DNA of 64,000 nt, from NCBI GenBank assembly GCA_029204225.1, contig CM055095.1, forward strand, positions 9,950,243 to 10,014,242, written 5' to 3'. Source of the stretch: Diphasiastrum complanatum (taxonomy: Eukaryota > Streptophyta > Lycopodiopsida > Lycopodiales > Lycopodiaceae). A program made the translations under genes and the position numbers. Position 1 is the first letter of the stretch. The number at the start of each line of letters is the position of its first letter. Below the pieces are notes generated by a model. That model made no database searches and was not told the DNA's origin. It saw nothing but the letters and a program-made list of their open reading frames with translations. This document shows positions 4,893 to 52,838 of this stretch, piece by piece.

Positions 4893-5245
4893 CGCATCCT
4901 CCCAACATTTTACTCCTCTGGCCTGCTCATAAAAAACAGGTTCTACTGCACCATCCTCAATAGAAATAAGAGCAAAATAGTAGAGGCACGAGTCTTCCCT
5001 TCATAGAAATGATCCACTTTGTTGTCCTGCAAAGTCTGCAACAACCATTTAGGAACTGGTTTGGGCTGTCCAACAGCCTTACCTTTGTCAACACTTTGTT
5101 GTCCAAAGTGTTCCGAACTTGGACCTTGTTGTCCAATGTTTTCCAAACTTGGACCTTGTTGTCCAATGTCTTCAACAGGCTGCTCTTCACCATAAATAGG
5201 TTTTTCTTGATGAACTATGGGCTGCAAAATTGAAGGACTGATGGG
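4205..5245 (-). repeat. Diverged duplication of the copia A linker region
   Basis: Two blocks, about 4470-4205 and 5245-4970, encode the same linker: EEQPVEDIGQQGP/QEQPAEDYGQHGP, then QQSV, then WLLQTLQDNK/WLLETLQDNK, then YEGKTRA/YEEKAHA. They are well diverged and stand about 770 bp apart in the same orientation. The upper copy also contains three about 30-bp subrepeats (5090-5175). Confidence 0.65.
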
Positions 5246-5882
5246 CTGTCCATTAGAAGTAGATGGCAGTCCCTTCTCTTCATAATTAGATGGCAAAACC
5301 AAATCTGGAAATATTTCAACATATGCATCATGGGGGAAGTCCCCTTTCATGACATGAGTGGGTGCAACATCATAGGAGGTCTTTTCATCAAAATGAACAT
5401 CACGACTCACTTTGATTTTATTAGTATCCATATTAAACAACCTATAGCCCTTGCTTTCACTACTATAGGCAACAAATATGCATTTAACTCCTTTATCATC
5501 AAGCATGGTTCTTAGCTTATCAGGAATGAAAGCATAAGCCGTGCAACCAAAGATGCGTAAGTGAGAAACACTAGGCTTCTTACCATACCAAACTTCATAA
5601 GGAGTTAATACCTTCAAGGCTTTCGTAGGACACCGATTACTAATGTAAGCCGCCGTTATGATCGCTTCAACCCAAAACTTGTGAGGTAGGCCCTTTGCCT
5701 TGAGCATGCATCAAGCCATCTCCATAATAGTGCGATTCTTTTTTTCGGCAACACCATTTTGTTGAGGTGTGTAAGGGGTTGTCATTTGATAATGGATACC
5801 TTTGCTTTGAAGATAAGTACCGAACGTATTCTTTATATATTCCCCTCCTCGGTCGGTACGTAAGATAAAAGAGTGCCCAAAC
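4943..5882 (-). pseudogene. Copia element A integrase, C-terminal part
   Basis: The frame at 5707-4943 reads FWVEAIITAAYISNRCPTKA, then TPYEVWYGKKPSVSHLRIFG and VSRDVHFDE, the diagnostic C-terminal half of a Ty1/copia integrase. Upstream (5880-5708), in shifted frames, are RTDRGGEY and TPQQNGVAEKKNRT, containing the last catalytic D and E segments. A stop precedes CMLKAKG. The sequence is cut at 5882, where a plus-strand LTR begins. The linker after the integrase contains a small repeat array (QQGPSLENIG units). Confidence 0.8.
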
Positions 5883-9342: not shown

Positions 9343-9985
9343 CTAATATTGAGCTAACTCCAAAGAATGTGAACTTGAAGCAACAAGACAAAAAGATGAT
9401 GAAGCTCTTCGCTCATAGGTATCCATAAGGAACAATCCACCACGTAATGTTCCCGAAGCAATGATCATAAGAGATCTCTTTGGGTCTTTGATAAGACATT
9501 TGTCTTCTTTGAATTCCACAACCAATCCTTGGTTCATAATTATAGACACCGAAATCAGATTCTTTTTTATTTTTGGAACATAAAGTACATTACGAATGTA
9601 CTTCTCCTCACCATTGGGTAAGATAATGGGGATCACTCCAATACCTTTGATAGGATAAGAGGTGTTCTCAACACCTTGAAGTTTGCTTCCATCATGCACT
9701 TTCACAAGCTTTGTGAAGACTTCTTTGTTATAAGTCATATGGCGTGTGGCACCGCTATCAATCACCCAATCAATAGATGAAAAAACAGCAACTTGTAAAG
9801 CTGAAGATGAGCTGTTTTCTGCTGAAAAACCAGCAAGATTTGAAGTGGCAGAAATCTCATCTTTAGGAGAGATGAGATTATTAGTGACAAAAGCATAATC
9901 ATTATTGAAAAGATTATCCTCCTTTCCAAATTGTTGTTCCAAAGTAATGATTGCGGTACTTGTATCGTTACCTTTCTGCATCAGT
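9343..9985 (-). pseudogene. Copia gag-protease remnant
   Basis: The minus-strand frame contains a Ty1/copia aspartic protease: WVIDSGATRHMTYNKEVFTK (catalytic D-S-G-A), then IRNVLYVPKIKKNLISV and FLMD, the usual lead into the GAG-pre-integrase region. It stops at 9343 and no integrase follows. The upstream end merges at about 9980 with a gypsy gag start (9985-10261), so this copia piece is joined to the wrong element. The protease would process Gag-Pol; this copy is truncated at both ends. Confidence 0.7.
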
Positions 9986-10261
9986 GTTCCGCATAGCAAC
10001 CGCTCCAGTATATTTTGGCGGCTTAAGATCCTTAATTGAGGGTAATTTCCGCGTCTTCGATGGAAGTTCGACTTCTTTTTCAACTGTCACAGGTTCAGCG
10101 ACTACCATAGCCGTTCCACTGACTCTCTCCGGTTCCTGTGGGGATTCGGTCAACTTCAATTGTTCAAGAATTTGCTATAGCACTATCTCCATGGCGTCAA
10201 CCTTGGCTGCCACCTCCTCAATTCTCAGTATCTTAGTGCTAGAACCCTCCAACGGATCCAT
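9985..10261 (-). pseudogene. Ty3/gypsy gag N-terminus
   Basis: From an ATG at 10261 the minus strand reads MDPLEGSSTKILRIEEVAAK, one stop, then LTESPQEPERVSGTAMVV and LPSIKDLKPPKYTG, the usual N-terminal gag leader ending just before the capsid domain (KPPKYTG resembles KPPxFxG). It starts about 150 bp downstream of a minus-strand primer-binding site at 10426-10413, as expected for a gypsy 5' end. The capsid is absent: the frame passes into copia protease sequence near 9980. Confidence 0.6.
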
Positions 10262-12126: not shown

Positions 12127-15100
12127 CTAAGGCTCGTCAGAGTCATGGTAGGATAAATCATCCGAATCTGTGGACTGCAGATCCCATGGGTCCGCAGATG
12201 AATCGGAACTGGAGGGAGCCATATGTCGTGGTGTGGCCCTGGCTCTGCTGCGTGCTCTGGATCCCTGCTGCGTGCCCTGGCTTTGGACCACCCCCCTCTC
12301 CCTGCCTCTACCTCTGCCTCTGCCTCTGCCTCTCTCCCCTCCTCTGGCCCCCATCTGGCTGCCCCCAGCCCTGTGTCTACTCCGTCGTGCCTGTGTGTCA
12401 GGTGGCCGTAACCCTACGCCATGGGATGGCCCTACCCACTGTGATGATGCCTGGCCGACGACTGCCTGTGATGCTCCACTCCTGTCTACAAAAAGAGTAC
12501 TCAGCCCCCCCCTCCTAGAACCTCTAGGTCTCCCCCTAGGCCTACGTGCAGGAATGGCTGGCTCCTCCTCTGTCTCTGCATCAGGGTCCACTAGCAGGTC
12601 AGCCAGGTCATCCCCCTGTGCCTCCGCCCACATCTCCTCGTCCTCCTCTGTATCTCCCTCAACCCACTCCTCCTCCTCCACATAGTGTGCCCCGAGCATC
12701 TCTCCACCCTCCGAGACCTCGTCATCTCCCTCCTCAGCCCTCTCCCTCTGCCTCTCTGTCCTCCTCTGCCGCCGTAAAGCCCGTGCGTTAGCCTGTGCCT
12801 GTCTGTAGAGCTCTCTATGGATCTCATCATCCATCTCCTCCTGTGTGGGTGGTGCCCGAGGAGCAGCAGCTATCGAATCCACCAAGCAAGTGTCGGGGTC
12901 CACCTGCAACCAAAAACAATACATTGTTGTTAGGCAGGTATTGTGCAACTCACTGCATATTTTGAAAGCAAATCAAATCAATTCACCAAAGCATGCCAAG
13001 AAAAAAGGGGTGATGATGTGACTCACCTCGAGCATCTGACCCTCTCCTCGTGTGCGCCTCAGCATACGGCCGTTGGTGTTCACAAACACCAACCGCCTAC
13101 ACTGCTCGATGGACAACCTGTTCCTCTTCTGCGTGTGATACAAGGCCCAGGTGCTCCAATTCCGCTCACAAGCTCCTGCAGAACAGTCCTGTGCAAGGAC
13201 TCTCTCAGCCAATCGCCTCAGGTCACCTGTGCTGCGCCCGTCGATGCACCACCATGTAACGGGCCTCAGCTGATCCTCCCTCCGCCGACTCTGCTCTCCA
13301 TCGAAAGGAAACTGGAAGCGCTCAAATGCGAGCAGCTGGCTTGCAATGTTGGCCAGCATCGGACCTATTGGCAAAAGGAAAAACATGGCACATGTAAGAC
13401 CCCTCAAATTCAGACACTACCAATGAGTACAATACTGCAGTAACATTGCTACCAAATGATTTCTCACACGTACCTGGTCCGGGCCATACGCGCTCCGTGT
13501 ACTCCACCCATCCCCGGTGCAGCTCCGGATCGTCCCTCTCTCGTGTAGAGCGCCACAAGGGGTGTAACATGTGGGCTACGGCGTGGATGGGTCGGTGGAA
13601 GTAGTCCCACCTGGCCTCCCAGATGCGTGAGATCTCGCGCCTCCTACAGTAGACAAATTACAACAATCACTAAACCATAGCATAAAAGAAACACATCAGA
13701 CTCGAGTGAGAAACAACAAACTAGACACTGAAGAGTCATACCTATGCTCGTCCAAGGCTGACAACAGAATCCCCTCGCCGATGCGCTCCATGAACTCGTA
13801 AATGAGACCGAGGGTGCACCCCTCACGGTCTACCAGACGCAGCACTCTGTAAATGGGTAGTAGGATCCCACTAATCTCCTCAGCAGCTCTCCAGAACTCG
13901 TCGCCGTACACAGTGGACTGGAAAAATGCCGAATGGGGGAGGTTTGTAAAGTCCCGGAAGGCCACGCTGGAAACCATCCGCCGCAATGCATCCTTCACCA
14001 CCACCAATCGCTCTAGCACCAAGAAGTAAAACGCAAAGCGTGTGGGTGCGGGCTTCTTCAGGTTTAGGGTGGAGAAGGTGCGGAACAGGGCCAACACACG
14101 CCTCTTCCTGGTGACAAAAGTGACTAGGCGCATGGCCGTAGAAGTGATCTGCAACACAAACACCCAGTAAAAAAGTTTAGACAGTAGTTGAGACGTGGTT
14201 AGCAGCATCGAAGGAAGAAAGCATAGCAAATAGAACAAACTATACCTCTCTGATCCATGGAAGCGCACATAGGTCATGGATGAGCAAGTCTATGCAATGT
14301 GCAGCACAGGGTGTCCACACAATGCTAGGGTGCTCCCTCATCATAATCTCGCCCATCTGCTTGCAGTTCGAGGCGTTGTCGGTGACAACCTGAACCACGT
14401 GCTCATCTCCGATGTCAGCAATAACATCTCTAATGACCTCCCATATGAAATCGGCTGTGATGGCGTCACCACCTCGAGTGGCATCCACGCCACTACTATG
14501 CCAAGCGGGCAAGAAACCAAGACATTGATGACGGATCGCCGACGAATGTCGGTCCATCCATCGCTCAGTATCGTGCATCCATACCTGTCGCAAAACACCC
14601 ATTAGCTACATGCAAAAATTACGGCACCAGTAAATCCTAAACACATGCAAAGAGATTACAAAGACAAGTTACTTACTGCTGCCAAGCTGAGCGGATGGAA
14701 CTCAACTCCCGCGTGATGGTCTCCTCCTCCTGACAAAGCAACCTGCCTCGTAGTGCCTCTCGCCTGGGAGGTGTCCATGTAGCATCCACGGCCGCCATCT
14801 GTGCACAGAACTCCCTGAACACCCAAGTGTCAACAACAGCAAAGGCAATGCCACACTCGTAAAAGAACTGGCCACACAGTCGAGTGCAACGGGCCTGCTG
14901 CTCTCTCTGCCAGCCGCATCGATCAAGGGTCTGCTGCCTGGGCCTAACCCCTCTCTGCTGTGTATTTGGTGCTCGTGGTCTGGCATGCCCAATGGATGGC
15001 TGATCTGTGGGTGTGTCACTCTCTCTGGCAACATCTGCCGAAGCATGTGGTGCATCTGCTGCCGAGGAGGAGGGTCGAGAAGCACCCGCTGCTGCTGAAC

Positions 15101-15437
15101 CAACATGCTCATCTGATGGTCCTGCTGCTGCTGCGGATGGAACTAAAGGTGCTCTACTGGGCCTTGCACCTGAACCATGCTCTGCCCGTGCTGTACTGGG
15201 CCCTGCAGCTGTACCATGCTCTGCCCGTGATGTACTGGGCCCTGCACCTGTACCATGCCCAACCCATGATGTACTACGCCCTGCAGCTATACCATGCCCT
15301 GCCCGTGATGTACTAGGCCCAATATCCATGGTAGGCCCTACCTGTCTGCCTGTGAGCCCTCCTGCATGCCTACCTGTAGCTGCTCCTGCTGTCTGTCCCT
15401 GTCTAGAACCCTGTGATGCAGTACCGGGCCCGTACAT
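12127..15437 (-). pseudogene. hAT-family transposase (DUF659 type), six exons, one frameshift
   Basis: Six exons with good GT/AG borders can be read on the minus strand: 15437-14677, 14584-14246, 14148-13742, 13643-13474, 13364-13027 and 12903-12127, about 931 codons. Exon 1 has an alanine/glycine-rich N-terminus with (GP)STSRAEHG repeats and the FREFCAQM segment. Exon 2 holds the DUF659/RNase H-like core: YGCTILSDGWTDIRRRS, VVQVVTDNASN and TPCAAHCIDL. Exon 5 has the hAT dimerisation domain: PVTWWCID, ACERNWSTWALYHTQKRNRL. Exon 6 is acidic and arginine-rich (RPRGRPRG). All splice phases agree except for a one-base deletion near 14503 in exon 2, between SCPLG and SSGVDAT, which breaks the protein. 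The gene would cut and paste hAT elements in the nucleus. I used the first ATG after an in-frame stop; exon 3 start may be off by 1-2 bp. Confidence 0.8.
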
Positions 15438-15855
15438 GGTAGACAACCTCTGCAGATCCTAATCAGAAATCCTAGGCGTGTCGTGACGGCTGAAACTGAT
15501 GCTGTAAAAATCACTGTGGGCGTGAAGAAAGGTGGTCTAGAGCCAGACTACGCTCGATTTGGTTGCCTACAGCTCAATGTCAACAATTGCAAAAAATCAA
15601 GCCTACACTTACCAAATATCGAAATTTGGTCGTTTCGCTCTCCACGAAGCTCAGACCCACCCGGCACCGTGCACACCAACTCCGTATCGTCGAGTAGATG
15701 CCTGCCAAGTATTCACTTGCGAAGATTGGACGCCCACGGCTCTCAGAAAAAAAATTTGCCTCCTCCACTACTGGCGCGGTTCTGTGCGCGAGGAGGCCGA
15801 AAATCGGGTTTTTGTTTTTTTTTTTTTTGCGATTCTGTCCACGATTCGCTGCAAC

Positions 15856-21253: not shown

Positions 21254-21256
<3 letters not shown>

Positions 21257-21337
<81 letters not shown>
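21257..21337. repeat. (GA)n tract at the LINE1 3' end
   Basis: An 81-bp GA run. On the minus strand the LINE1 tail (TTAATAATAATAATTCTAAT) passes directly into this (TC)n. Confidence 0.95.
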
Positions 21338-21340
<3 letters not shown>

Positions 21341-21574: not shown

Positions 21575-24500
21575 CTAGCTACGAGCAAGCTGAAAGTAAT
21601 GAGTGATGGTAGTAGTGGGTCGTGATGTAGGCTGGTGGGAGGCGTATGAAGATCTAGTAGCACTGGATCGAGCCGAAACTCTCTGTGTCTTCGATCTTCG
21701 GACGGGGACGTCAAAATCCGCAACCGAAATATCCACTCTGTCTCGCTTCTGGAAGAACTGAGTAATGTGAGCCTGACTGGAATCCATATCTGAGAGCGTA
21801 GGTAGAAGTGAAGCTCGTAAAATATACATCTCTCTCAAAAGAAGACCCACACATCTAGCATCTGGATACTCGAGGAAGGAGCTCAACGTGAGGGGAATAT
21901 CTCGGTATAAACAATGGTATCGTCCTCTAATCTCATAGTATACTGGGCAGCGAAAGATGAAATGAAACTCATCTTCCACCTCCTGAAGAGAACAAAGCTG
22001 ACATATCCGCTGCAATCTGGGAGTGTCTGTGTATCTACCTGTCTCGATAGCAAGCTGATGAGAAGAGACTCGAAGCTGTCCTATACGATATCTCAGACCA
22101 AAAGATAGCGTCTGTGTAAGATAAACTGGAAGAATAGGCAAGCCCGAAACGTCCAGCCGTAAAAGATGTGTGCCATAATAATGTAGCTTGACCCTATCTG
22201 GATCAGGATGTGACCATATAGTGCGTATGTAGCTCCGGTAAATCTGCTGTCTGATATAAGCATGGGTTCCATTCGGAAGATCAAGTGCGGATAAACCCCA
22301 AGTCTGAAGAAGGGCTGAGACACTGCGATACCAAGAGTGCTTGGCTCCCTGATCCGCAATGGTACAAGATGAAGTGAGAGCAGCAACAATGTATCTGGAG
22401 GTATCTAGATCTGATACCCTGTGAAGAAAGGTGATGATCTGAAACATAGCACCAACAACTAATGGAGGAGAAGCAAACTCGGCTAGTATGATATCATGTG
22501 GTACTGAGGGCTTAGCCCGAATTATCCTACTGAGCATGAGAATCTGGATACGAGTAAGATCTCTCCATGTATCGCGTGATAAATCAGGGCACCAAGTCTC
22601 AGCCGAATATAGCACAACTGGGGAGACAGTAGCAGAAAATAGTAGGCATCTGGTAGCAGGATCCTGCACATAATAAGTAGAGCAAAATCTCTCCATATGC
22701 ACAAGAGCGGTATGCCCCTTGCGGAGCCTGGCGGTGGCTGCTGGTCGAAAAGTGAGTAGCGGACCAGAGAAAAGAACTCCCAAATAGGTGTAGGAGGTCA
22801 CGATCTCAATCGGTAGCCCGTCATAATAGAAAATCACATCTCTCATATGCTGTCTGTTGGTGTTAAACACCATAATCTTAGTCTTCTTAAGGTTAACCGT
22901 CAATCCCCAACGCTGGCAAAAGTGATGTAAAGCAGAAAGGTGACTCTGTAAACCAGCTGCAGAGGATGAGAGGAGAACCACATCATCAGCGTACAAGAGA
23001 ATGGGGATAATAATGTCTGCTAGGGGACAGCCCTCTCCACCTTCCTCGCGAATAATCCGCTCGAGGTCATCTATATATAGTGCAAAAAGAGTGGGTGATA
23101 AGGGGCAACCCTGCTTCACCCCAATGGTAGAATGTATCTGTGAGGACCAGCCACTACCATCTCTGAAACGTGCCAAGACTCGCTCATATAAAGTAATGAT
23201 CGCAGCAATAGTATCCTCTGAAAAGCCAAGTGAAGACAGTCTCTGGAAAAGAAGATGTCGTGGAACAGAGTCAAAAGCTTTGCGAAAATCCACAAAGCAA
23301 CAGTAAATTCTCTGTTTCCGATGTCGAGCCTCCTCAATAATGCATCTCAAAATGAAGATCTGGTCTGAAGTAGAATATCCCGGTCTGAAACCAGCTTGAC
23401 CCATAGCGTGTAAACCCTCAGTTTCAGCAAAAGATCCAGTGACTGTCTGTAGTATAGAGCCATATATCTTAGCTAGAGTGTGGCCAATCATAATGGTGCG
23501 GTAGTTTCCTACATTCATGGGATCACCTGCCTTGAGGATGGGGTGAAGGATATTAGTACACCAAGCCGTAGGAAAACCAGAAGTAACAGCTGTGTTAAAA
23601 ACATGAGCAATGTAAGGGGAGATGAGATGTGCTACGGGCTTTAGGAAGTCTACACTTAAGGAGTCATAGTCAGTGGCTTTATTTAGTTTGGCATGTTTAA
23701 TGGCGTTTTCAACCATGTCAGGGGTGAAAAGTGAGCAGTGGTCAGGTCTCGGTGAGAGTGAGGTAGGAGGAGAGTCCGTGGTATATAACTCCGTGGCATA
23801 CTCGATCCAGGATTCGATGGCTATGGGGGCCAGTGTTGAAGAGTGTCTGGTGAAATGTTTCCAGAAAAAAGAGGAGGAGGGTGAATCTAAAGAGTTGATC
23901 ATTTTTTGGCAGAGTGATTGTAGGTACTTGATCTTCTTTGTTCTGGTGGTTCTATGATATTCTTTCTGGCATTGTTTGAGTGTGGCAGGGGAGTGTGACC
24001 TGGCATATGTCACATGATTGTGAAGAGAGCGGCATTCTGCATCATACCATCTGTTGTGAACACTTCTGTGAGATGATGTCGTTTTGGTGGGGAAGGATGA
24101 GGAAGCAGCAGCTAAGAGGGATGTAGAGAGAAAAGTGGCTTGCTGGTCAATTGGTGCCATGAACGGGAAGTTAGCGAGTAGTTGGGATAAGATTGTTGTG
24201 TAATTAGTGAATCCAGATTGGGTGAAAGGAATACGTTTATGAGTGGGAAGAGAGCAAGAAATTTGCAAAGAAGAGGTTATGTGACCAAGTGAGATGTGTA
24301 AGAGTGAGTGATTGGAAATGGTAGGGGGTGTGATGGAGAAATCAGAAATGTGAGAGATCAAAGCAGGTGATCCAATGAAGTAGTCGACCACACTATGTCC
24401 TCCACCATGAGGATAGCATGTATATGCTGATGAGGAAGGCCACTGTGTGAGGCCATTCAAAATGGCAAGAGCGTGTGTCTCTGCTAGAGTGATCAACTGC

Positions 24501-25078
24501 TCCCCGAAAGATGTAGCTGGAGTGTCTGCATCCTGTGATACCCGGTCTAGCCCCATATCCAAAGGGTAAAGCCTGAGAAGATCCGTAGCTGCATGAAATT
24601 CGGTTTGTCTAGAGCTTGTGCGGGCGTTGAAATCACCTGCTAGTAAAATGGAACCCTGCTGAGAAAAGATAGCAATATCATCTGAGAGAGCCTGAAAAGG
24701 GTCCCCGCCAAACTCAGCAAACACTGAGGTCTGTGGAGCAAAATAGCATACAGCTATATAGATGTCCTGAGGTAATCCCAATAGTGAGCCAATAATGTGT
24801 AACCAAATATAGCGAGCGTATGGATCTTGTTTAACCATCTGAACTGTGGTGTCTCTGTATAAACAAGCTACTCCTCCAGATCCTCGACAAGTTTTTCCCC
24901 TAACAAATGGACGAAAAGCAGAATGCCAAGAGTACTCCTGTATATTTGGAAGAGGATGATATAAGGACTCATGAGTTTCAGCCAACAACAAAATGTCGCA
25001 TTTTCTAATAAAATCAGCAAAGTCTCCGGCTGATGACGAAGATAAAAAACCATTACAATTCCAGAAGCCAAGTCTCAA
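21575..25078 (-). CDS. LINE1 ORF2: endonuclease / reverse transcriptase
   Basis: An open frame of about 1167 codons. An APE-type endonuclease occupies residues 1-265: catalytic N7/N9 in FWNCNG, E34 in LLAETHES, D149 and N151 in LAGDFNAR, D232 in VVDYFIG, H257 in SNHSLL. Reverse transcriptase spans about 505-790: LHPILKAGDPMNVGNYRTI, QAGFRPGYSTSD, FVDFRKAFDSVPR, GVKQGCPLSP and the YADD catalytic box at 696-699. A CCHC-type zinc motif (CQLC...EFHFIFRC) lies near 1040-1060. The enzyme nicks target DNA and copies LINE RNA there. Codon 1 is TTG; the first in-frame ATG is residue 81, after two catalytic positions. The frame is open upstream back to the ORF1 TAG at 25127-25129, 16 codons earlier. 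ORF2 is therefore probably expressed by readthrough or UUG initiation. Confidence 0.92.
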   Translation of the reverse strand: MRLGFWNCNGFLSSSSAGDFADFIRKCDILLLAETHESLYHPLPNIQEYSWHSAFRPFVRGKTCRGSGGVACLYRDTTVQMVKQDPYARYIWLHIIGSLLGLPQDIYIAVCYFAPQTSVFAEFGGDPFQALSDDIAIFSQQGSILLAGDFNARTSSRQTEFHAATDLLRLYPLDMGLDRVSQDADTPATSFGEQLITLAETHALAILNGLTQWPSSSAYTCYPHGGGHSVVDYFIGSPALISHISDFSITPPTISNHSLLHISLGHITSSLQISCSLPTHKRIPFTQSGFTNYTTILSQLLANFPFMAPIDQQATFLSTSLLAAASSSFPTKTTSSHRSVHNRWYDAECRSLHNHVTYARSHSPATLKQCQKEYHRTTRTKKIKYLQSLCQKMINSLDSPSSSFFWKHFTRHSSTLAPIAIESWIEYATELYTTDSPPTSLSPRPDHCSLFTPDMVENAIKHAKLNKATDYDSLSVDFLKPVAHLISPYIAHVFNTAVTSGFPTAWCTNILHPILKAGDPMNVGNYRTIMIGHTLAKIYGSILQTVTGSFAETEGLHAMGQAGFRPGYSTSDQIFILRCIIEEARHRKQRIYCCFVDFRKAFDSVPRHLLFQRLSSLGFSEDTIAAIITLYERVLARFRDGSGWSSQIHSTIGVKQGCPLSPTLFALYIDDLERIIREEGGEGCPLADIIIPILLYADDVVLLSSSAAGLQSHLSALHHFCQRWGLTVNLKKTKIMVFNTNRQHMRDVIFYYDGLPIEIVTSYTYLGVLFSGPLLTFRPAATARLRKGHTALVHMERFCSTYYVQDPATRCLLFSATVSPVVLYSAETWCPDLSRDTWRDLTRIQILMLSRIIRAKPSVPHDIILAEFASPPLVVGAMFQIITFLHRVSDLDTSRYIVAALTSSCTIADQGAKHSWYRSVSALLQTWGLSALDLPNGTHAYIRQQIYRSYIRTIWSHPDPDRVKLHYYGTHLLRLDVSGLPILPVYLTQTLSFGLRYRIGQLRVSSHQLAIETGRYTDTPRLQRICQLCSLQEVEDEFHFIFRCPVYYEIRGRYHCLYRDIPLTLSSFLEYPDARCVGLLLREMYILRASLLPTLSDMDSSQAHITQFFQKRDRVDISVADFDVPVRRSKTQRVSARSSATRSSYASHQPTSRPTTTITHYFQLARS

Positions 25079-25126
25079 ATTGGTAGGGGATCTCGGGTAG
25101 CTTCTATATCCGGGGGCCCCTAGTTC

Positions 25127-25129
25127 CTA
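25127..25129 (-). promoter_or_regulatory. Candidate readthrough UAG between LINE1 ORF1 and ORF2
   Basis: CAA-UAG-GAA-CUA: five of the six bases after UAG fit the CARYYA readthrough context. LINE2 has UAG-GGA-UUA at 29948-29950, with the same 16-codon spacing to the UUG before the endonuclease. Confidence 0.5.
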
Positions 25130-26035
25130 TTGTGGAAGGTCGAAAAATCTCGGTTTCCCGTCAATAAAAACAACCCTTTGCCCTTTCTCTTTCGCTTCAA
25201 GGATAATCTTTTTTCTTGCCAACCATTGAGTATTTGTTAAGTCATCATCCATATAAATGAAAGTACCTTTAAGCTTTGCCCTAAGCCGAAGGGCAGCATT
25301 GCGTTGTGAAAGCGAGCGGAACTTGATAAACAAAACATTGTCATCAAATTTACTGCGCCAAGCAGTATCAAAACCGTCAGCCACATGAGATAACTTGGAA
25401 ATGAGCAAATCCGTAGCTTCTTCCAACGGTTTTCCACCATTGGCAATGCCTCTTACTCTAATGTTAAAGGCTTTTTTGGCCCTTCTGGCTTGTTCACCCA
25501 AAACTGTCTCCAAATCGTTTTCCTTCGGAAAAGATGAAATCTGAGAGTGATTACCTTGCTTAAGGATCGATGTCGTTTCTTCAACCTGTTTTGCGAGTGA
25601 TGAGAGTTTGCTGCCCATATCACCCGGTTTGAAGAGTGCTGCCCACGTTTTCGTCTCCTCGACTTGTTTCTCCAAGCTATTGATCTTGTTGGAAGTCTCC
25701 TCCAAGGCACTTTTTTCTGCAATTCGTTGCTTAAGATATATATTTTCTTGCTCAAGCTGCTCCACACGTTCCGTGACACCAAAAAGATCCTTAGCTAACT
25801 TGCTATTTTCAGCTTCAAAGAGGTGTAGTTGTTTCTTAAGTCCAAGAATTTCTTGCCGGATAAAACTAAGATCATAAGCAAAAAGACTTTCGGTAGGTTT
25901 GGAAGGAGTGTAGTCAATGGCAGCCATGTTGATAGTTTCTGTCACCGAAGACGGCTCCTCCATCACTACCGGTGATGGGGGGGTGTCCAACAGGGAGGGG
26001 GGTGTAAGAACACCCTCCTTTTTCTTAGGTGCCAT
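25127..26035 (-). CDS. LINE1 ORF1: L1-type RNA-binding chaperone
   Basis: 302 codons from ATG at 26035. A low-complexity N-terminus (MAPKKKEGVLTPPSLLDTPP) is followed by a heptad-rich coiled coil (residues about 55-185). An RRM-like segment follows (AFNIRVRGIANGGKPLEEAT ... NVLFIKFRSLSQRNAALRLR) and a short C-terminal domain (DDDLTNTQWLARKKIILEAK ... VVFIDGKPRFFD). This order matches the ORF1p of animal-type L1 (coiled coil, RRM, CTD), a trimeric RNA-binding protein of the retrotransposition particle. No CCHC knuckle is present, unlike many plant L1 ORF1 proteins. It ends CAA TAG GAA CTA, and ORF2 continues in the same frame. Confidence 0.85.
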   Translation of the reverse strand: MAPKKKEGVLTPPSLLDTPPSPVVMEEPSSVTETINMAAIDYTPSKPTESLFAYDLSFIRQEILGLKKQLHLFEAENSKLAKDLFGVTERVEQLEQENIYLKQRIAEKSALEETSNKINSLEKQVEETKTWAALFKPGDMGSKLSSLAKQVEETTSILKQGNHSQISSFPKENDLETVLGEQARRAKKAFNIRVRGIANGGKPLEEATDLLISKLSHVADGFDTAWRSKFDDNVLFIKFRSLSQRNAALRLRAKLKGTFIYMDDDLTNTQWLARKKIILEAKEKGQRVVFIDGKPRFFDLPQ

Positions 26036-26150
26036 AGGAGGCGGTAAGCAGATGGAGGAGAGAGGGAGAGAGAGATCGCGCGATGAGAGGGAAGGGAGGC
26101 AGATTTGGCCACGGGAGCAAGGGGCGAGGCAGGAGGGAGAGCGGGGGTAA

Positions 26151-26152
<2 letters not shown>

Positions 26153-26214
<62 letters not shown>
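26153..26214. repeat. (GA)n tract between the two LINEs
   Basis: A 62-bp GA run separating the LINE1 5' end from the LINE2 3' end. Confidence 0.95.
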
Positions 26215-26218
<4 letters not shown>

Positions 26219-26456
26219 TCTTTATTAATGTCCATGGAGTACCCTAAGGTACATAGGACTAAAAAAAAGGTACATGTCAAGTGTGCCCAGTGGGAGCGTG
26301 AAAGCTCAACCACCTAAAAGAAACAAGATTACAATAAAACAGGAAATAGTGCTATGCACAAGGAGGGTCAAGCATCATAGATGTCTCTCTGCTTTGTGAG
26401 AAATAATGATGTAAAGTATGTTGTGGCACTGTCTCTGTGCGAGCTGCGTCTCTCTG

Positions 26457-29400
26457 TCATCGAGTAGATGATCGGTGGTGTCTACGTTGTTGTGAAGTTG
26501 CAGGTCGTGGCCTGCGGGCTCGTTGTCTCTCTGGTCGACGACACTGCCTCTGTCGTCTATGTATGGTGGCATCTGGAATCTCAGCCTCTCCATCAAAGTC
26601 ACTACTCTCCTGCCTCTGTCTCCGACGGGATAGACACTCCTGTATGCTCAGCTGTATCAGGGGGGAGGTGTCAGCGTCAAGACTCGCCATACGCAGGTCT
26701 ATCATCTCCCGGATCATCAACGAAACACATATGGAGTCCTCATACGATATCAAGGCAGAAAGTGCAAGTGGATGGTCTCGAAACAAGCAGTAGTATCTCC
26801 CTCGAATCTCATAGTAAGTTGGGCATCTGAAGAGAAAATGAAACTCATCCTCTATATCATGTAGATCACACATACTACAAATCTGCGCATCTCTCAGGAT
26901 GCCCCTGTATCTACCAGTCTCAATGGCTAACTAGTGAGAGGAAACCCTGAACTGACCCATCACTATCCGCAGTCTGTGTGAGATACTGTCCACTAGGTAT
27001 CTGGGTACAATGGGATACCCAGCAGGATCCCGAGATAGAAAATGTGTCCGATAGAACTCCGTCTTCACCCTAGATGAATCCTGCCAAGTGCTTTGAAGAT
27101 ATGCCCTGTATAAGTATCCTCTAATATACTGGTGAGTACCAGCTGGTAGATCCATAATGGGAATACTCAATGTGGAGAGGAGACGACAGGCCTGGGAATA
27201 CCACGAGAAGGAGTGTCCCTCAAAGTGTAGGTGCTGGGAGGACGACAGAGCTGCTGCAACATAGTGTGTGCCTCTACCCTGGAGATCCTCTAGGCGTTGT
27301 ATGAATGTGACAATATAGAACAATGCCTCTATTTGAATGGGGGGATGGCAAACTTTGCCAATATAATATGATGTGGGATAGAGGGCTTAGCCCGTATCAT
27401 CTGAGAGAGCATATGAATCTGAAGTCGTGAGATGCGCGCCCACTCGGTAGCTGTCAAGCCAGTACTCCATGTCTCTGATGCATATAGAGCTGAGGGAACG
27501 ACCATAGTGTCAAAGAGTCGGTTCTTACTAGTCGCATCTCTAACATGTGAGCTGAAGCATAATCTTTCCAACTCTACCAACGATGCATAACCCTTCCGTA
27601 GACGGGAAAATGCCGCCTGTCGCATGCTGAATGTGGGACCAGAAAATACCACCCCTAGGTATGTGTAGGAGTCAACTACCTCAAGTGGAAGCTCCTCCCA
27701 TAAAAGCACCTGTTGCATCATGAAGGATCTAGAGGTGTTAAATATCATAACTTTGGTTTTGGCCACACTCACTGATAATCCCCACTGAGTACAAAAAGAG
27801 TGAAGCGCGTCAAGATGCCACTGCAAACCTTCCCTCGTCCTCGAAAGCAAAACCACATCATCAGCATATAATAGGATAGCGATAACGAGGTCACCCAATG
27901 TGCATCCCTCACCTCCCTCTGCTTGTATAACCTGCTCAAGCTCGTCTATATATAAACCAAAGAGTGTAGGGGAGAGAGGACATCCCTGCTTAACCCCAAT
28001 GGTACTCTCTATCTCTGGTGATACAACTCCTGATACTCGGATACGACCAATAACGCGTCTGTACAATGCCACAACTGCCTGTATGATATCCTCTTGGAGG
28101 CCACGGTCCCGAAGTCTCTGTATCAATAGATGTCGAGGCACAGAGTCAAAGGCCTTGCGGAAATCCGCAAAGCAGCAGTAAACACGCTCTCTCCTGGCCT
28201 TAGCTTCCTCAATGATGGATCTCAGGGTGAAAATATGATCTGATGTGGTATATCTTGGTCTGAAACCTGCCTGACCTATGGCATGCAGTGCTCGGGTATC
28301 CATCTCTGTACTGATCTCTGACTGAAGAATAGAACCATAAACCTTGGCAAAGAGATGACTGATCATGATGGTACGATAGTTGTCGGCTTTCATGGGATCA
28401 CCGCCTTTATGGATAGGGTGGATAAGGTTTGTGGACCAGGGTGAGGGGAAACCAGATGTGATAGAGCGGTTAAATAGGAGAGAGAGGAAGGGTGAGAGAA
28501 TGTCAGTAGCTTGCGTCAAAAGTTCAGCTTCTAGATCATCAATATCCTTGGCCTTATGTAGATTTAATCGGTCAATGGCCTCTTCTACTATGGCTGGAGA
28601 GAATATATCAGAAGTACATGTGTAGGGATGTGTAGGAAGTGGAGGGGTGTCAGGAACAGTGTACAACGATGTGGCATAGGTTACCCATGTGCTAAGATCT
28701 GTGATCTGGGGTGGGGGTGCCCGTGAGAGGAATTTTTGCCAAAATGATCGCGACAAGGAGGTAAAGAGAAGGTCCATCATCTTCTTCCCCTGGCCGATTT
28801 CGTAAGTAATTTTCTTTTTTCGGGTGGTTCTACGGTATACACGGGATAAGTCCTTTACCATATAGGGAAAGTGACAGCATGCGTAAATCAAGTCCAGATG
28901 AAGTTGGTTACACTCGTGGTCATACCAGGGATTGTGTGGTCGATTATGTCGTAAGTGCTTGGGCCGTGGAGATGGGAAGGCAAGGGATGGAGCGATATGC
29001 AAGGTCCGAACAAGAAAAAGAGACTGGTCCGTCAAAGTATCGTTGTAAGGGAAATGAGTCAGGAGGTCAGATAATGCTTCCCTGTACCTTGGGGTGTTTT
29101 GAGGATGATAGCGGTACACTGTTTTGTTGCCGGGAGTTAGGGTATTAGTACATGGGGTGTGAAGAAGGCCAATAGAGAGAGAGAGAGGTATGAGTGGTCA
29201 GACAAAGTGGTACGGTGAACCAGGAAAGATGAAATGTAGGGGAGGAGAGACGGCAATCCCATGAAATAGTCAATAATACTACTCCCTCCACTGTGTGGGA
29301 AACAAGTAAAGTCACCTGAATCAGGCCACTTCAATAAGCCATTATAAATGGCCAATCCATGAGCCTCACCCAACTGAAGCATCTGCTCTTCGTATGCAGT

Positions 29401-29947
29401 AACTGGACCCTCTGCATCTGCTGATCGTCGCCGGAGGCCAAGATCATCCCAGTCTAAAGCATGTATCCGTTGTGGATCATCCTCTACTCTATGGAACTCT
29501 GTCTGCCTGGAACAGTCCTGGCATTAAAGTCGCCAGCTAAAAGAACATAACCCCGCTCCTCATATCGGATAATGTCTGAAAAGATATCCATGTAAGGTGA
29601 CTCCTCATCTGCTGTGAAAACTGAGGTGTCTAGTGGAAAATAACAAATGCCAGAAGGAGGTCACAGGTCAATCCCATCACGGCCTAAGTAGGCCACCCCA
29701 CCAGAACCCCGATCGGCAATGCTCTCGTCGACCGCCGATGTGCAGAGTACCAGCAAAAACCCGTAACAACAGGTAGACCTCTTTCCGGACTCTCATGTGT
29801 CTCTGTGAATAGGAAAAGATCACCCTCCGCACAAAAGTCTCTAAAATCACCGACAGTAGCCGAGTGAATGCCATTGCAGTTCCATAGCCTCAACCGCAAT
29901 GCTCGAGGAGGACCCCCCGAACCGCTTAGTCCGAGGGGCCTTAATCC
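26457..29947 (-). pseudogene. LINE2 ORF2, frameshifted endonuclease / reverse transcriptase
   Basis: The N-terminus (LRLRLWNCNG at 29899, FTETHES) and an endonuclease segment (IIDYFMGLPSLLPYISS at about 29280) lie in different frames. The RT is open over 29119-27329: LIHPIHKGGDPMKADNYRTI, QAGFRPRYTTSD, FADFRKAFDSVPR, GVKQGCPLSP and YADD. After another shift, 27323-26931 and 26873-26457 hold the C-terminal region with the zinc motif CDLHDIEDEFHFLFRC. The first position of CX2C is C but the second is H (CDLH), a change from LINE1 CQLC. Clearly homologous to LINE1 ORF2 but inactive. Confidence 0.85.
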
Positions 29948-31208
29948 CTATTTGACAGAATTTGGAGGATCAATGTATCGAGCCCTGCAATCCCGGTAAA
30001 TTACCCTCTTCCCCAAAGCTTTTGCCTCAATAAATGCTTTTTTCCGATCCACAACTTGCATGGGAGTGATCATCCATAAATATAAGTGTACCTCTAAGCT
30101 TGGCCCGCAGTTTGAGAGCTGCCCATCTCTCTTCCAGATTCGTGAAGCAAACTATGAGTGTAGAGGGGTCTCTCTTGGTTCTCCAAGCTCTATCCAACCC
30201 TTCGGAGTGATGGGAGAGTGTGCTTGAGAGAAAGCTGGCTGCTTCACTCATTGGATCGTTGGTGTCTTCAACTCCGCGGACCCTAATATTCAGGGCTTTG
30301 TATTCTCACATTCGCTCTTCGGATATGGTGGCCGAAATGACTCGGTTGAAGGATGGTGTACCCTCCCTAACATCCTCCTTGAATAGAGAAGCCCACGATT
30401 TTGTCTCAGCCTTATGTTGCTCTATCTTCTCTTCCAACTCTTGAATCTTAGTAGGTTCTCCTTGGTTACTTATTGCTGCCTCCAAAAAAGTAATCCGGGC
30501 TAACATGATTTCTCGTTCAGCGGCCATAGTGTGAATGACCGTTTGAAGCTGTCCCATTGTTTTCCGTAGAGAGGTGGATTCGTTCTTGATTTGCTCGATC
30601 TAGGAGAAAATGTATTGCTCAAATGATTTGGCAGGTGTATAGATCTCAGGTATCAAGAAAGAGGAGTGAGCAGGTGGATGGCAAGGAGTATGGACTGTAG
30701 GCAACACTGTCTCATCTTTCATACCGCATATGATTCCATCTGTAACCACAGCAGTGCCATCACGCGGTCTCTGAGCAACATTGAGAGCATTGGCATACTG
30801 ATTAGAAACAAGAGTGAATGCCTCTGTAGCGCTGGTGGACAGCGAGAGAGGGACTGTGGTATCCTTGGAATCTGGAGCGCTGGTGGACAGAGGAGGAGCT
30901 GTAGCGCTAGGAGACAACGGATCTGCATCGATGCTGGAGCCGGATGCAGCGCTGGTGGACGATATCAGAACTGGAGCTGATTTCATCAGTGGAGCTGGTG
31001 GAGCGATGGAGCTGCTTTCATCAGTGGAGACCCGTGGAGAGGCCTGGCTAGCTAGCAATGGTGTAGAGACCCGTGACTCAGCTGTGGAGACCTGCGATGG
31101 AGGCTCCTGATCCGTGGAGACCCGCGATACCTGGCCATTTAGCTCATCTGTACAGATCCGCGATGGAGGCTCCTGGCTACTCAACGTCAGCGATGGTGAA
31201 GGGGCCAT
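29948..31208 (-). pseudogene. LINE2 ORF1 with two internal stops
   Basis: A 202-codon N-terminal part (31208-30600) is rich in repeated VSTD/STAES-like words. A TAG follows, then a coiled-coil stretch (MGQLQTVIHTMAAEREIMLA, 30557-30306). After a TGA comes the RRM-like part (LNIRVRGVEDTND, ALKLRAKLRGTLIFMDD). The C-terminal end (KRVIYRDCRARYIDPPNSVK) finishes at TAG 29948-29950. The arrangement matches LINE1 ORF1, with a much longer N-terminus. Inactivating: stops at about 30600 and 30304, and a shift near 30040. Confidence 0.75.
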
Positions 31209-31315
31209 CTGGCCACAAGTAGAAGTCCGTGAGGGGGGGAGCGTGGGCTCCCCTTACCTTTCCTGGCCATGGACAAGGATCACTCCTATTGCAAGGCCCT
31301 CGCCATCTCCATCGC

Positions 31316-51900: not shown

Positions 51901-52838
51901 TCAAAGTGGCAGTTGGATTAACCCCAATCTTCTTCGCTGCTTCTCGAACAAGCTTTTACTTAGTGGCTTTGTAAAGATATCAGCTGTCATTTCCTTTGTA
52001 GGTATGAAGACTATCTTCAGTATCTTCTTCTCGACTAAGTCCCGAATAACATGATACTTGATAGCTATGTGCTTCGTCGTAGCTACTGCTTCCGCCCATA
52101 ACTCCTTTGGTGCTTTTGCATGAGCCATCATACACCTTGCAACTTCCATACGTGTACGATTTCTTCGTTCAGCTATTCCATTGTGCTGAGGTGTGTATGA
52201 TGCTGTTTTTGTATGCATAATACCTCGATCAGTACTGAAAGCTTTGAATTTGTTGGAAATATACTCACCTCCACGATCTGTGCGAATTTGTTTCAACTTG
52301 CTGCATGTCTGCTTCTCAGCCCAATTCGTATACTCAACGAATTTCTTGAAAGTTTCTGATTTTGTACGAATAAAATATACTACAACGAACTTCTTGAAGT
52401 CATCGATAAACATAATGAAGTATTTTGCATCACCCAATGACAACACTCCAAATGGTCCACAAATATCTGAATGCACAATTTCCAGTACTTTGGTTGCTTT
52501 ATAAACATCTTTACTGAAAGGTGTTCGAGACATTTTGCCTTTAAGACAGGATTCGCAGGTAGTTCAAATATCTCGACTTTTGATTTTGACTCCTTCAATT
52601 CTCTGACTTTTGTTGGCTTGGTACAGGGCTTCCATGTTCATGTGACATAGCCTCTTGTGCCACATAATATCTGTTGCTTCATGAGTTTAATTAGCTTGTT
52701 CAACTCTAGTTCGGATGCTCAAGTGATACAAATTACCATTTCTATTGCCTTTGGCAACCAGGTTATCAGAATCTTCATCGAACAATCTACAAGAGTTTCT
52801 TGTGAAGGGTACTGACATTTCTATGTCAACTGTCTTAG
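51901..52838 (-). pseudogene. Copia G pre-integrase/integrase fused to the RNase H end
   Basis: WHKRLCHMNMEALYQANKSQ and CESCLKGKMSRTPF (zinc region) lead into the integrase: EIVHSDICGPF, YFIMFIDDFKKFVVVYFIRT, QIRTDRGGEYISNKFKAF, TPQHNGIAERRNRTRMEVAR, KELWAEAVATT. It then jumps directly to KHIAIKYHVIRDLVEKKILK, TADIFTKPLSKSLFEKQRRR, the extreme end of copia RNase H. The rest of integrase, the whole RT and most of RNase H are deleted within one open 210-codon frame (52533-51901). Confidence 0.8.

Follow-up and report, generated by a model that had tools for sequence, protein, structure and literature searches.

We followed up two long interspersed nuclear elements (LINEs) in a stretch of 64,000 nucleotides from the genome of the clubmoss Diphasiastrum complanatum (contig CM055095.1, positions 9,950,243 to 10,014,242 of the forward strand), which we refer to as the window. 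In both elements, here called LINE1 and LINE2, the first open reading frame (ORF1) ends in a UAG, and the frame for the endonuclease and reverse transcriptase (RT), ORF2, continues in phase beyond it. We propose that ORF2 is likely produced in fusion with ORF1, by programmed readthrough of this one UAG, in the style of retroviral Gag-Pol. Readthrough is supported because the UAG, the frame, and a stem-loop downstream of the stop are kept across three groups of elements within one genome. The layout, the identity of the stop, the frame, the open linker between the two parts, and the conservation of the hairpin can all be seen directly in the sequence.

Two LINEs with ORF1 and ORF2 in one frame

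Both elements lie on the minus strand (Table 1). In LINE1 the junction reads CTT CCA CAA TAG GAA CTA GGG ... ACC AAT TTG AGA CTT GGC TTC TGG AAT TGT AAT GGT, with 16 sense codons between the TAG (25127-25129) and the TTG (25076-25078). In LINE2 it reads GTC AAA TAG GGA TTA AGG ... CGA GCA TTG CGG TTG AGG CTA TGG AAC TGC, and 16 in-frame codons again separate the TAG (29948-29950) from a TTG. An earlier note on this DNA had described this arrangement as shared by two LINEs. The layout was recovered in each, and the two copies proved to differ in state and in family. LINE1 is intact, with both ORFs open, and LINE2 is a decayed copy with frameshifts and stops. Their ORF2 pieces are 38-51% identical and their ORF1 pieces 32% and 42% identical, which places them in separate families.

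The protein content of the elements is that of known LINEs. ORF2 of LINE1 matched the Pfam endonuclease family PF03372 (E = 4e-13, above the family cut-off) and the RT family PF00078 (E = 2e-33), the RT being of the type found in retrotransposons without long terminal repeats (non-LTR). In the PDB, the RT matched R2 (5e-24) and L1 ORF2p (7e-21); R2 and L1 chains score alike. With the endonuclease at the start of ORF2 and a non-LTR RT, LINE1 and LINE2 can be classed as APE-type (apurinic/apyrimidinic endonuclease-like) LINEs with an L1-like layout. In a comparison aimed at the trimeric type of ORF1 found in L1, no Pfam family matched ORF1 of LINE1 at a threshold of 0.001. A D. complanatum protein (P0033) is 97% identical to it, and the ORF1 proteins P0033 to P0035 had only weak Pfam matches, below cut-offs and mostly to coiled-coil families.

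In neither element does an in-frame AUG precede the residue that we take, by comparison with the L1 endonuclease, to be the catalytic Asn, as had been noted before. In LINE1 ORF2, AUG first appears in frame at codon 97 past the UAG, or codon 81 counted from the TTG, and there is no AUG in any frame from the UAG to the Asn codon. The TTG is the sole in-frame near-cognate codon from the UAG to the endonuclease start. LINE2 has one out-of-frame AUG, 65 nucleotides (nt) past the first base of the stop and just before the Asn codon.

We searched the 1.745-Gb genome of D. complanatum with LINE1 ORF2 and scored 39 places among many more candidates. All 39 matches were full length and approximately 100% identical, and 37 of them had no internal stop; the LINE1 family therefore appears to be young. 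In the 30 best-scoring loci, which were fetched (L002-L031), the junction was always CAA-TAG-GAA-CTA with ORF2 in frame. ORF2 was open to 1183 codons in 29 of these loci and to 1147 codons in the other (L021), and ORF1 was complete in most, not all, of them. Because the family expanded recently with this layout, we infer that ORF2 has to be expressed by way of it. A genome-wide change of the genetic code is unlikely, since LINE1 ORF2 itself ends in TAG.

The junction in other LINE families

Beyond the LINE1 family, we surveyed 60 loci in three rounds of 20 short pieces, with P0035 and a LINE2 piece as ORF1 queries and P0002 as the ORF2 query. Loci were chosen with the junction unseen, from matches to ORF1 (rounds 1 and 2) or ORF2 (round 3), and they covered families B to F (which carry Q before the stop), the LINE2 group (a to d), and a further group, group 3. 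The junction was readable in 51 of the 60 loci. Among these, ORF2 was in frame in 47 and the stop was UAG in 49, and the next codon was GGA or GAA. The earlier note had set out-of-frame ORF2s, UAA or UGA stops, and random spacing against its own proposal. We looked for these and found four of the 51 junctions out of frame, one UAA, and one UAU, and the proposal was not refuted. The four out-of-frame junctions (L044, L058, L068, and L089) are single copies whose relatives are in frame.

The rounds gave similar pictures. In rounds 1 and 2 combined, 36 of 40 loci had both anchors; 33 were in frame and 3 were out of frame (L044, L058, and L068). The stop was TAG in 34, TAA in one (L040), and TAT in one (L059), followed by GGA in 34 and GAA in 2. 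The anchors in these rounds required G-[GA]-A after the stop, a condition that excluded none of the loci with an endonuclease anchor. Two in-frame copies (L048 and L055) carried a stop inside the linker. In round 3, 15 of 20 loci were readable, 14 in frame and one out of frame (L089), all with TAG-GGA; in two of the 14 (L081 and L084), another TAG precedes the stop by two codons. Of the five unreadable loci, two look rearranged and three, which have an endonuclease anchor but no stop anchor, end at a (TC)n run. In L059, a copy of the LINE2 group, UAU replaces UAG, and ORF1 and ORF2 are joined by a sense codon.

The frame was retained across families, as the earlier note had expected, but the length of the linker was not. 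The distance from the stop to the Trp codon in in-frame copies was 60, 63, or 66 nt, corresponding to linkers of 15, 16, or 17 codons. At codon 17, LINE1 and the LINE2 group had TTG, families B to F had TTA, and group 3 had CTT or CTC. The codon before the UAG also varied (CAA, AAA, AAG, or TGC), followed in each case by UAG and GRA. Although the linkers of LINE1 and LINE2 had been described as unrelated, an end-to-end alignment was obtained once other families were placed in between. In the frame of the putative fusion, the linker was open in all 13 representatives examined, while frame +1 or +2 held a stop in 9 of the 13.

A copy from group 3 (L092) extends the comparison. Its long open frame before the TAG spans 467 codons when counted from the first Met, and its ORF2 is open for at least 1215 codons. 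The first in-frame AUG of ORF2 is codon 50, past the catalytic Asn, and an out-of-frame AUG lies just before the Asn. Thus, neither of the intact copies read for AUG (LINE1 and L092) has an in-frame AUG ahead of this residue, and in LINE1, LINE2, and L092 the AUG closest to the stop is out of frame and lies 65-76 nt past the stop's first base. ORF2 of L092 is 52% identical to that of LINE1 and 58% identical to the RT part of LINE2, and its ORF1 is 36% identical to that of LINE1. The RT parts of LINE1 and LINE2 are 51% identical, so that identity among the three groups is 51-58% over the ORF2 parts compared. The region of the catalytic Asn (WNC) is conserved in all three. The third bases of the residues beside the junction (Asn, Cys, and Gly) differ among families, which argues that the stop has stayed UAG, without changing to UAA or UGA, and has kept the G that follows it while silent sites changed.

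A conserved stem-loop after the UAG

All three groups have retained a predicted stem that starts 6-7 nt past the UAG, and its arms show compensatory changes. In an alignment of 15 representatives, the consensus stem had 11 pairs, 89.7% of cells were paired, and 6 pairs had changed on both sides. With group 3 included (17 representatives), the stem had 10 pairs and 91.2% of cells were paired, compared to at most 65.9% when one arm was slid by 1-3 columns. Double changes occurred in 18 cells, compared to a mean of 7.4 in the shuffles, and none of the 500 shuffles did as well on paired cells, double-change cells, or the covariation score. The same held for the 35 distinct sequences among the 47 in-frame junctions, decayed copies included: 88.3% of cells were paired (at most 67.7% when slid by up to 4 columns), and each sequence kept at least 7 of the 10 hairpin pairs. 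Folded one at a time, 14 representatives gave z scores from +0.4 to -3.7.

We also looked for structure beyond this stem. A possible pseudoknot, in which the hairpin loop would pair with the downstream endonuclease start, was matched by 7 of 500 shuffles in LINE1 (25029-25129, minus strand) and by 30 of 500 in L066. In the other 15 of the 17 sequences, such pairing was unremarkable or had no match, and the pseudoknot is not a shared feature. A candidate second hairpin covers the start of the endonuclease coding region (alignment columns 53-82, from window positions 25025-25129 and 15 loci), with one G-C/A-U exchange in 7 of 16 sequences. In Rfam, the sole match to 24900-25300 was below threshold (17 bits against a cut-off of 60).

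Proposed readthrough and its alternatives

Viral readthrough signals offer a framework for these observations. Type III signals are described as generally combining UAG with a G or a purine-rich octanucleotide directly 3' of it and with RNA structure of some form on the 3' side; examples are UAG-GGR in Tombusviridae, AAA-UAG-GUA in luteoviruses, and, in murine leukemia virus, a pseudoknot after an 8-nt spacer (PMC3542737, in its sections on these signals). The clubmoss junctions resemble this class. UAG was present in 30 of 30 LINE1 loci and 49 of 51 others, G directly follows the stop in all readable junctions (GGA or GAA), and computation finds a covarying stem-loop on the 3' side. The likeness of GAACUA and GGAUUA to the CARYYA motif, suggested in the earlier note, did not hold up. 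The type I context (UAG-CAR-YYA) was ruled out, as the base at +4 is G, not C. We favor a readthrough fusion because UAG-GRA with a hairpin fits type III.

In the proposed mechanism, most ribosomes would stop at the UAG and yield ORF1p. A minority, delayed by the hairpin, would take a near-cognate tRNA at the UAG and continue through the linker into the endonuclease and RT. The rate of readthrough would set a low ratio of ORF2 to ORF1, and ORF2 would share a polypeptide with the ORF1 domain, as in retroviral Gag-Pol. From the features above we infer that readthrough takes place, how often it does so, and what the fusion is for. More broadly, it is probable that in the whole clade the endonuclease-RT is never made separately but always fused to ORF1, through type III readthrough of the UAG next to a conserved RNA hairpin, which would represent a Gag-Pol strategy in target-primed retrotransposons.

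Several observations count against readthrough. None of 73 proteins was a fused ORF1-ORF2 relative, and none that clearly matched ORF1 was an ORF2 protein. Every family compared comes from one genome. The ratio of nonsynonymous to synonymous change in the linker (dN/dS, NG86) fell on both sides of 1, giving no clear sign of purifying selection on its amino acids. Folded singly, LINE1 was near its shuffles at three lengths (z = +0.9, +1.1, and -0.6) and reached -1.8 elsewhere, and family F (+0.4), L041 (-0.2), L2d (-0.9), and L2c (-1.0) were likewise close to theirs. Among the structure measures for the 17 representatives, pairs changed on both sides (reached by 81 of 500 shuffles) and further pair types (462 of 500) were unremarkable. 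The shuffled controls for the hairpin, including those that gave 0 of 500, ignore the relatedness of the sequences.

Two lines of support were dropped as a result. Amino acid conservation of the linker was not used as proof of translation, given the mixed dN/dS, and single-sequence folding was not used as proof of the LINE1 hairpin, given its lack of significance. The rather free variation of the linker's amino acids is as expected of a spacer whose RNA would be under selection. Scans of viral contigs gave no relative in one case and one distant RT locus in another.

Termination followed by reinitiation could also use a structure at this position. Ribosomes would stop at the UAG and, placed by the hairpin, restart nearby on a non-AUG codon, releasing a free ORF2 protein. 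SART1 depends on a structure past its stop-start site, and mammalian L1 has been proposed to reinitiate after termination in an unconventional way (PMC5972666, in the part on LINE translation); a UUG is available in LINE1 and in the LINE2 group. However, LINE1, LINE2, and L092 lack an in-frame AUG near the stop, and the UUG gives way to UUA in families B to F and to CUU or CUC in group 3. Reinitiation also has no need of the ORF1 frame, yet the frame is kept while the spacing shifts by whole codons. We regard this explanation as unlikely. The same changes at codon 17 bear more directly on initiation at UUG, or at another fixed near-cognate, in that position. The earlier note had offered UUG initiation as an option next to readthrough, prompted by the TTG of LINE1 and the LINE2 group. 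Since families B to F have TTA there and group 3 has CTT or CTC, UUG is refuted as a shared mechanism, and we give a fixed start at codon 17 almost no credence. Readthrough, the other option, is the one that the retained UAG, frame, and stem-loop in three groups favor.

The remaining alternatives would also account for a shared frame. If splicing or RNA editing removed or altered the UAG in some transcripts, ORF1 and ORF2 would be joined without readthrough and the frame would likewise be kept, but the G-R-A after the UAG and the covarying hairpin would be left unexplained; we consider this highly improbable. Shared descent might have preserved an accidental in-frame layout, with translation of ORF2 starting at the earliest AUG in frame (codon 97 for LINE1 and codon 50 for L092), and the data do derive from a single genome and a single set of related families. 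Such a start, however, would drop the WNC region that all three groups conserve, and the UAG, frame, and hairpin persist at 51-58% ORF2 identity while adjoining silent sites differ. Descent alone is thus very unlikely to explain the layout, and programmed readthrough of the UAG remains our preferred reading.

Known systems and significance

Type III readthrough in viruses (the gammaretrovirus RT, the Tombusviridae replicase, and the luteovirus coat extension) shares with the clubmoss LINEs the UAG, the G at +4, and an RNA structure separated from the stop by a short spacer on the 3' side; in gammaretroviruses and Tombusviridae the extension carries the polymerase, as it would the RT here (PMC3542737, same sections). 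The clubmoss case differs in that the host element is a LINE, not a virus, and that the 3' structure supported so far is a stem-loop. Among retrotransposons, Tj1, Tosmo1-3, and Tcry1 of fission yeast also have an in-frame stop between two protein parts, in their case Gag and Pol, and the stop of Tj1 is essential for transposition (PMC10085805, in the portion on these elements). These are LTR retrotransposons with other machinery, whereas the clubmoss element is target-primed.

Within LINEs, human L1 and Zorro3 also have ORF1 followed by an endonuclease-RT ORF2, but they have a spacer between the ORFs, in contrast to the single frame without in-frame AUG found here. Changing the first ORF2 ATG of Zorro3 reduced retrotransposition to less than 5% (PMC1965478, in its account of that mutant). 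SART1 resembles the clubmoss LINEs in having a structure downstream of the ORF1 stop and differs in its overlapping stop-start UAAUG (PMC5972666, in part); the clubmoss LINEs have no AUG overlapping the stop. The LINE mechanisms treated in the relevant part of PMC5009743 include none with stop readthrough. UAG readthrough between LINE ORFs was likewise not found in the parts of the open-licence PubMed Central literature covered, a scope outside which most subscription papers fall. The LINE type and the recoding device are each known, and as far as could be seen, their pairing is new.

How ORF2 of LINEs is translated is an old open question. For L1, SART1, and Zorro3, reinitiation or internal initiation has been named (PMC1965478 and PMC5972666, in part), and the clubmoss sequences point to a different, testable answer, with a device held in common with retroviruses and plant viruses. 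The signal is compact enough for a reporter and comes with natural variants, namely, changed hairpins, one UAA copy and one UAU copy, and linkers of 15-17 codons. It also suggests that the ORF2 protein may be able to act while fused to ORF1. If so, the ORF1 part would bring ORF2 into the particle.

Features of the window and (TC)n runs

TABLE 1 Coordinates of LINE features in the window
Feature	Position	Strand	Basis and remarks
LINE1 ORF1	25130..26035	minus	Open frame, 302 codons from ATG, MAPKKKEG...FFDLPQ; stop 25127-25129
LINE1 in-frame UAG between ORF1 and ORF2	25127..25129	minus	Sequence; context CAA-UAG-GAA
LINE1 16-codon linker ELGAPGYRSYPRSPTN	25079..25126	minus	Open in frame; aligned with linkers of other families
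LINE1 stem-loop H1	25086..25120	minus	Arms ~25108-25120 and ~25086-25098; predicted by consensus fold with covariation over families
LINE1 ORF2 frame	21575..25126	minus	1183 open codons, then TAG 21575-21577; endonuclease and RT
LINE2 ORF1 remnant	29951..31253	minus	Interrupted by stops and frameshifts
LINE2 in-frame UAG	29948..29950	minus	Sequence; context AAA-UAG-GGA
LINE2 16-codon linker GLRPLGLSGSGGPPRA	29900..29947	minus	Sequence; compared with relatives
LINE2 stem-loop H1	29911..29940	minus	z = -3.5 for 29888-29942; predicted by consensus fold
LINE2 ORF2 remnant	26592..29947	minus	tblastn pieces; disrupted endonuclease part, followed by a long RT part that is open (27332-29197, Pfam RVT_1)
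(TC)n between LINE1 5' end and LINE2 3' end	26153..26215	minus	Sequence
(TC)n at LINE1 3' end	21256..21338	minus	Sequence

The window's LINE1 copy lies within the (TC)n run at the end of LINE2. A (TC)n run of at least 12 nt was present within 600 nt after ORF2 in 25 of the 30 LINE1 copies, exactly 240 nt past the last ORF2 codon in 16 of these; by comparison, a run of this kind occurs in 6% of 600-nt pieces drawn at random from the window. Upstream of ORF1, a run was found in 26 of the 30 copies, although in about 12 the nearest one is a short run inside the leader, which makes the 5' side less clear. The pattern suggests (TC)n-targeted insertion and stacking of LINE families. LINEs specific for (TC)n, such as Kibi, are known. 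The 5' side of the LINE1 copies (L002-L031) often carried a further (TC)n run together with the 3' end of a different LINE family. In addition, two complete LINE1 ORF2 copies share an orientation and are about 5 kb apart (C18:1155861-1159409 and C18:1160846-1164394), an arrangement expected if copies land in each other's tails.

Elsewhere in the window, the minus strand carries pieces that we labeled Copia-like pol/integrase by eye from their translations (4943-5710, 9343-10086, and 51901-52563). Two further open frames on that strand (12127-12972 and 14673-15458) encode low-complexity proteins in the most GC-rich part of the window.

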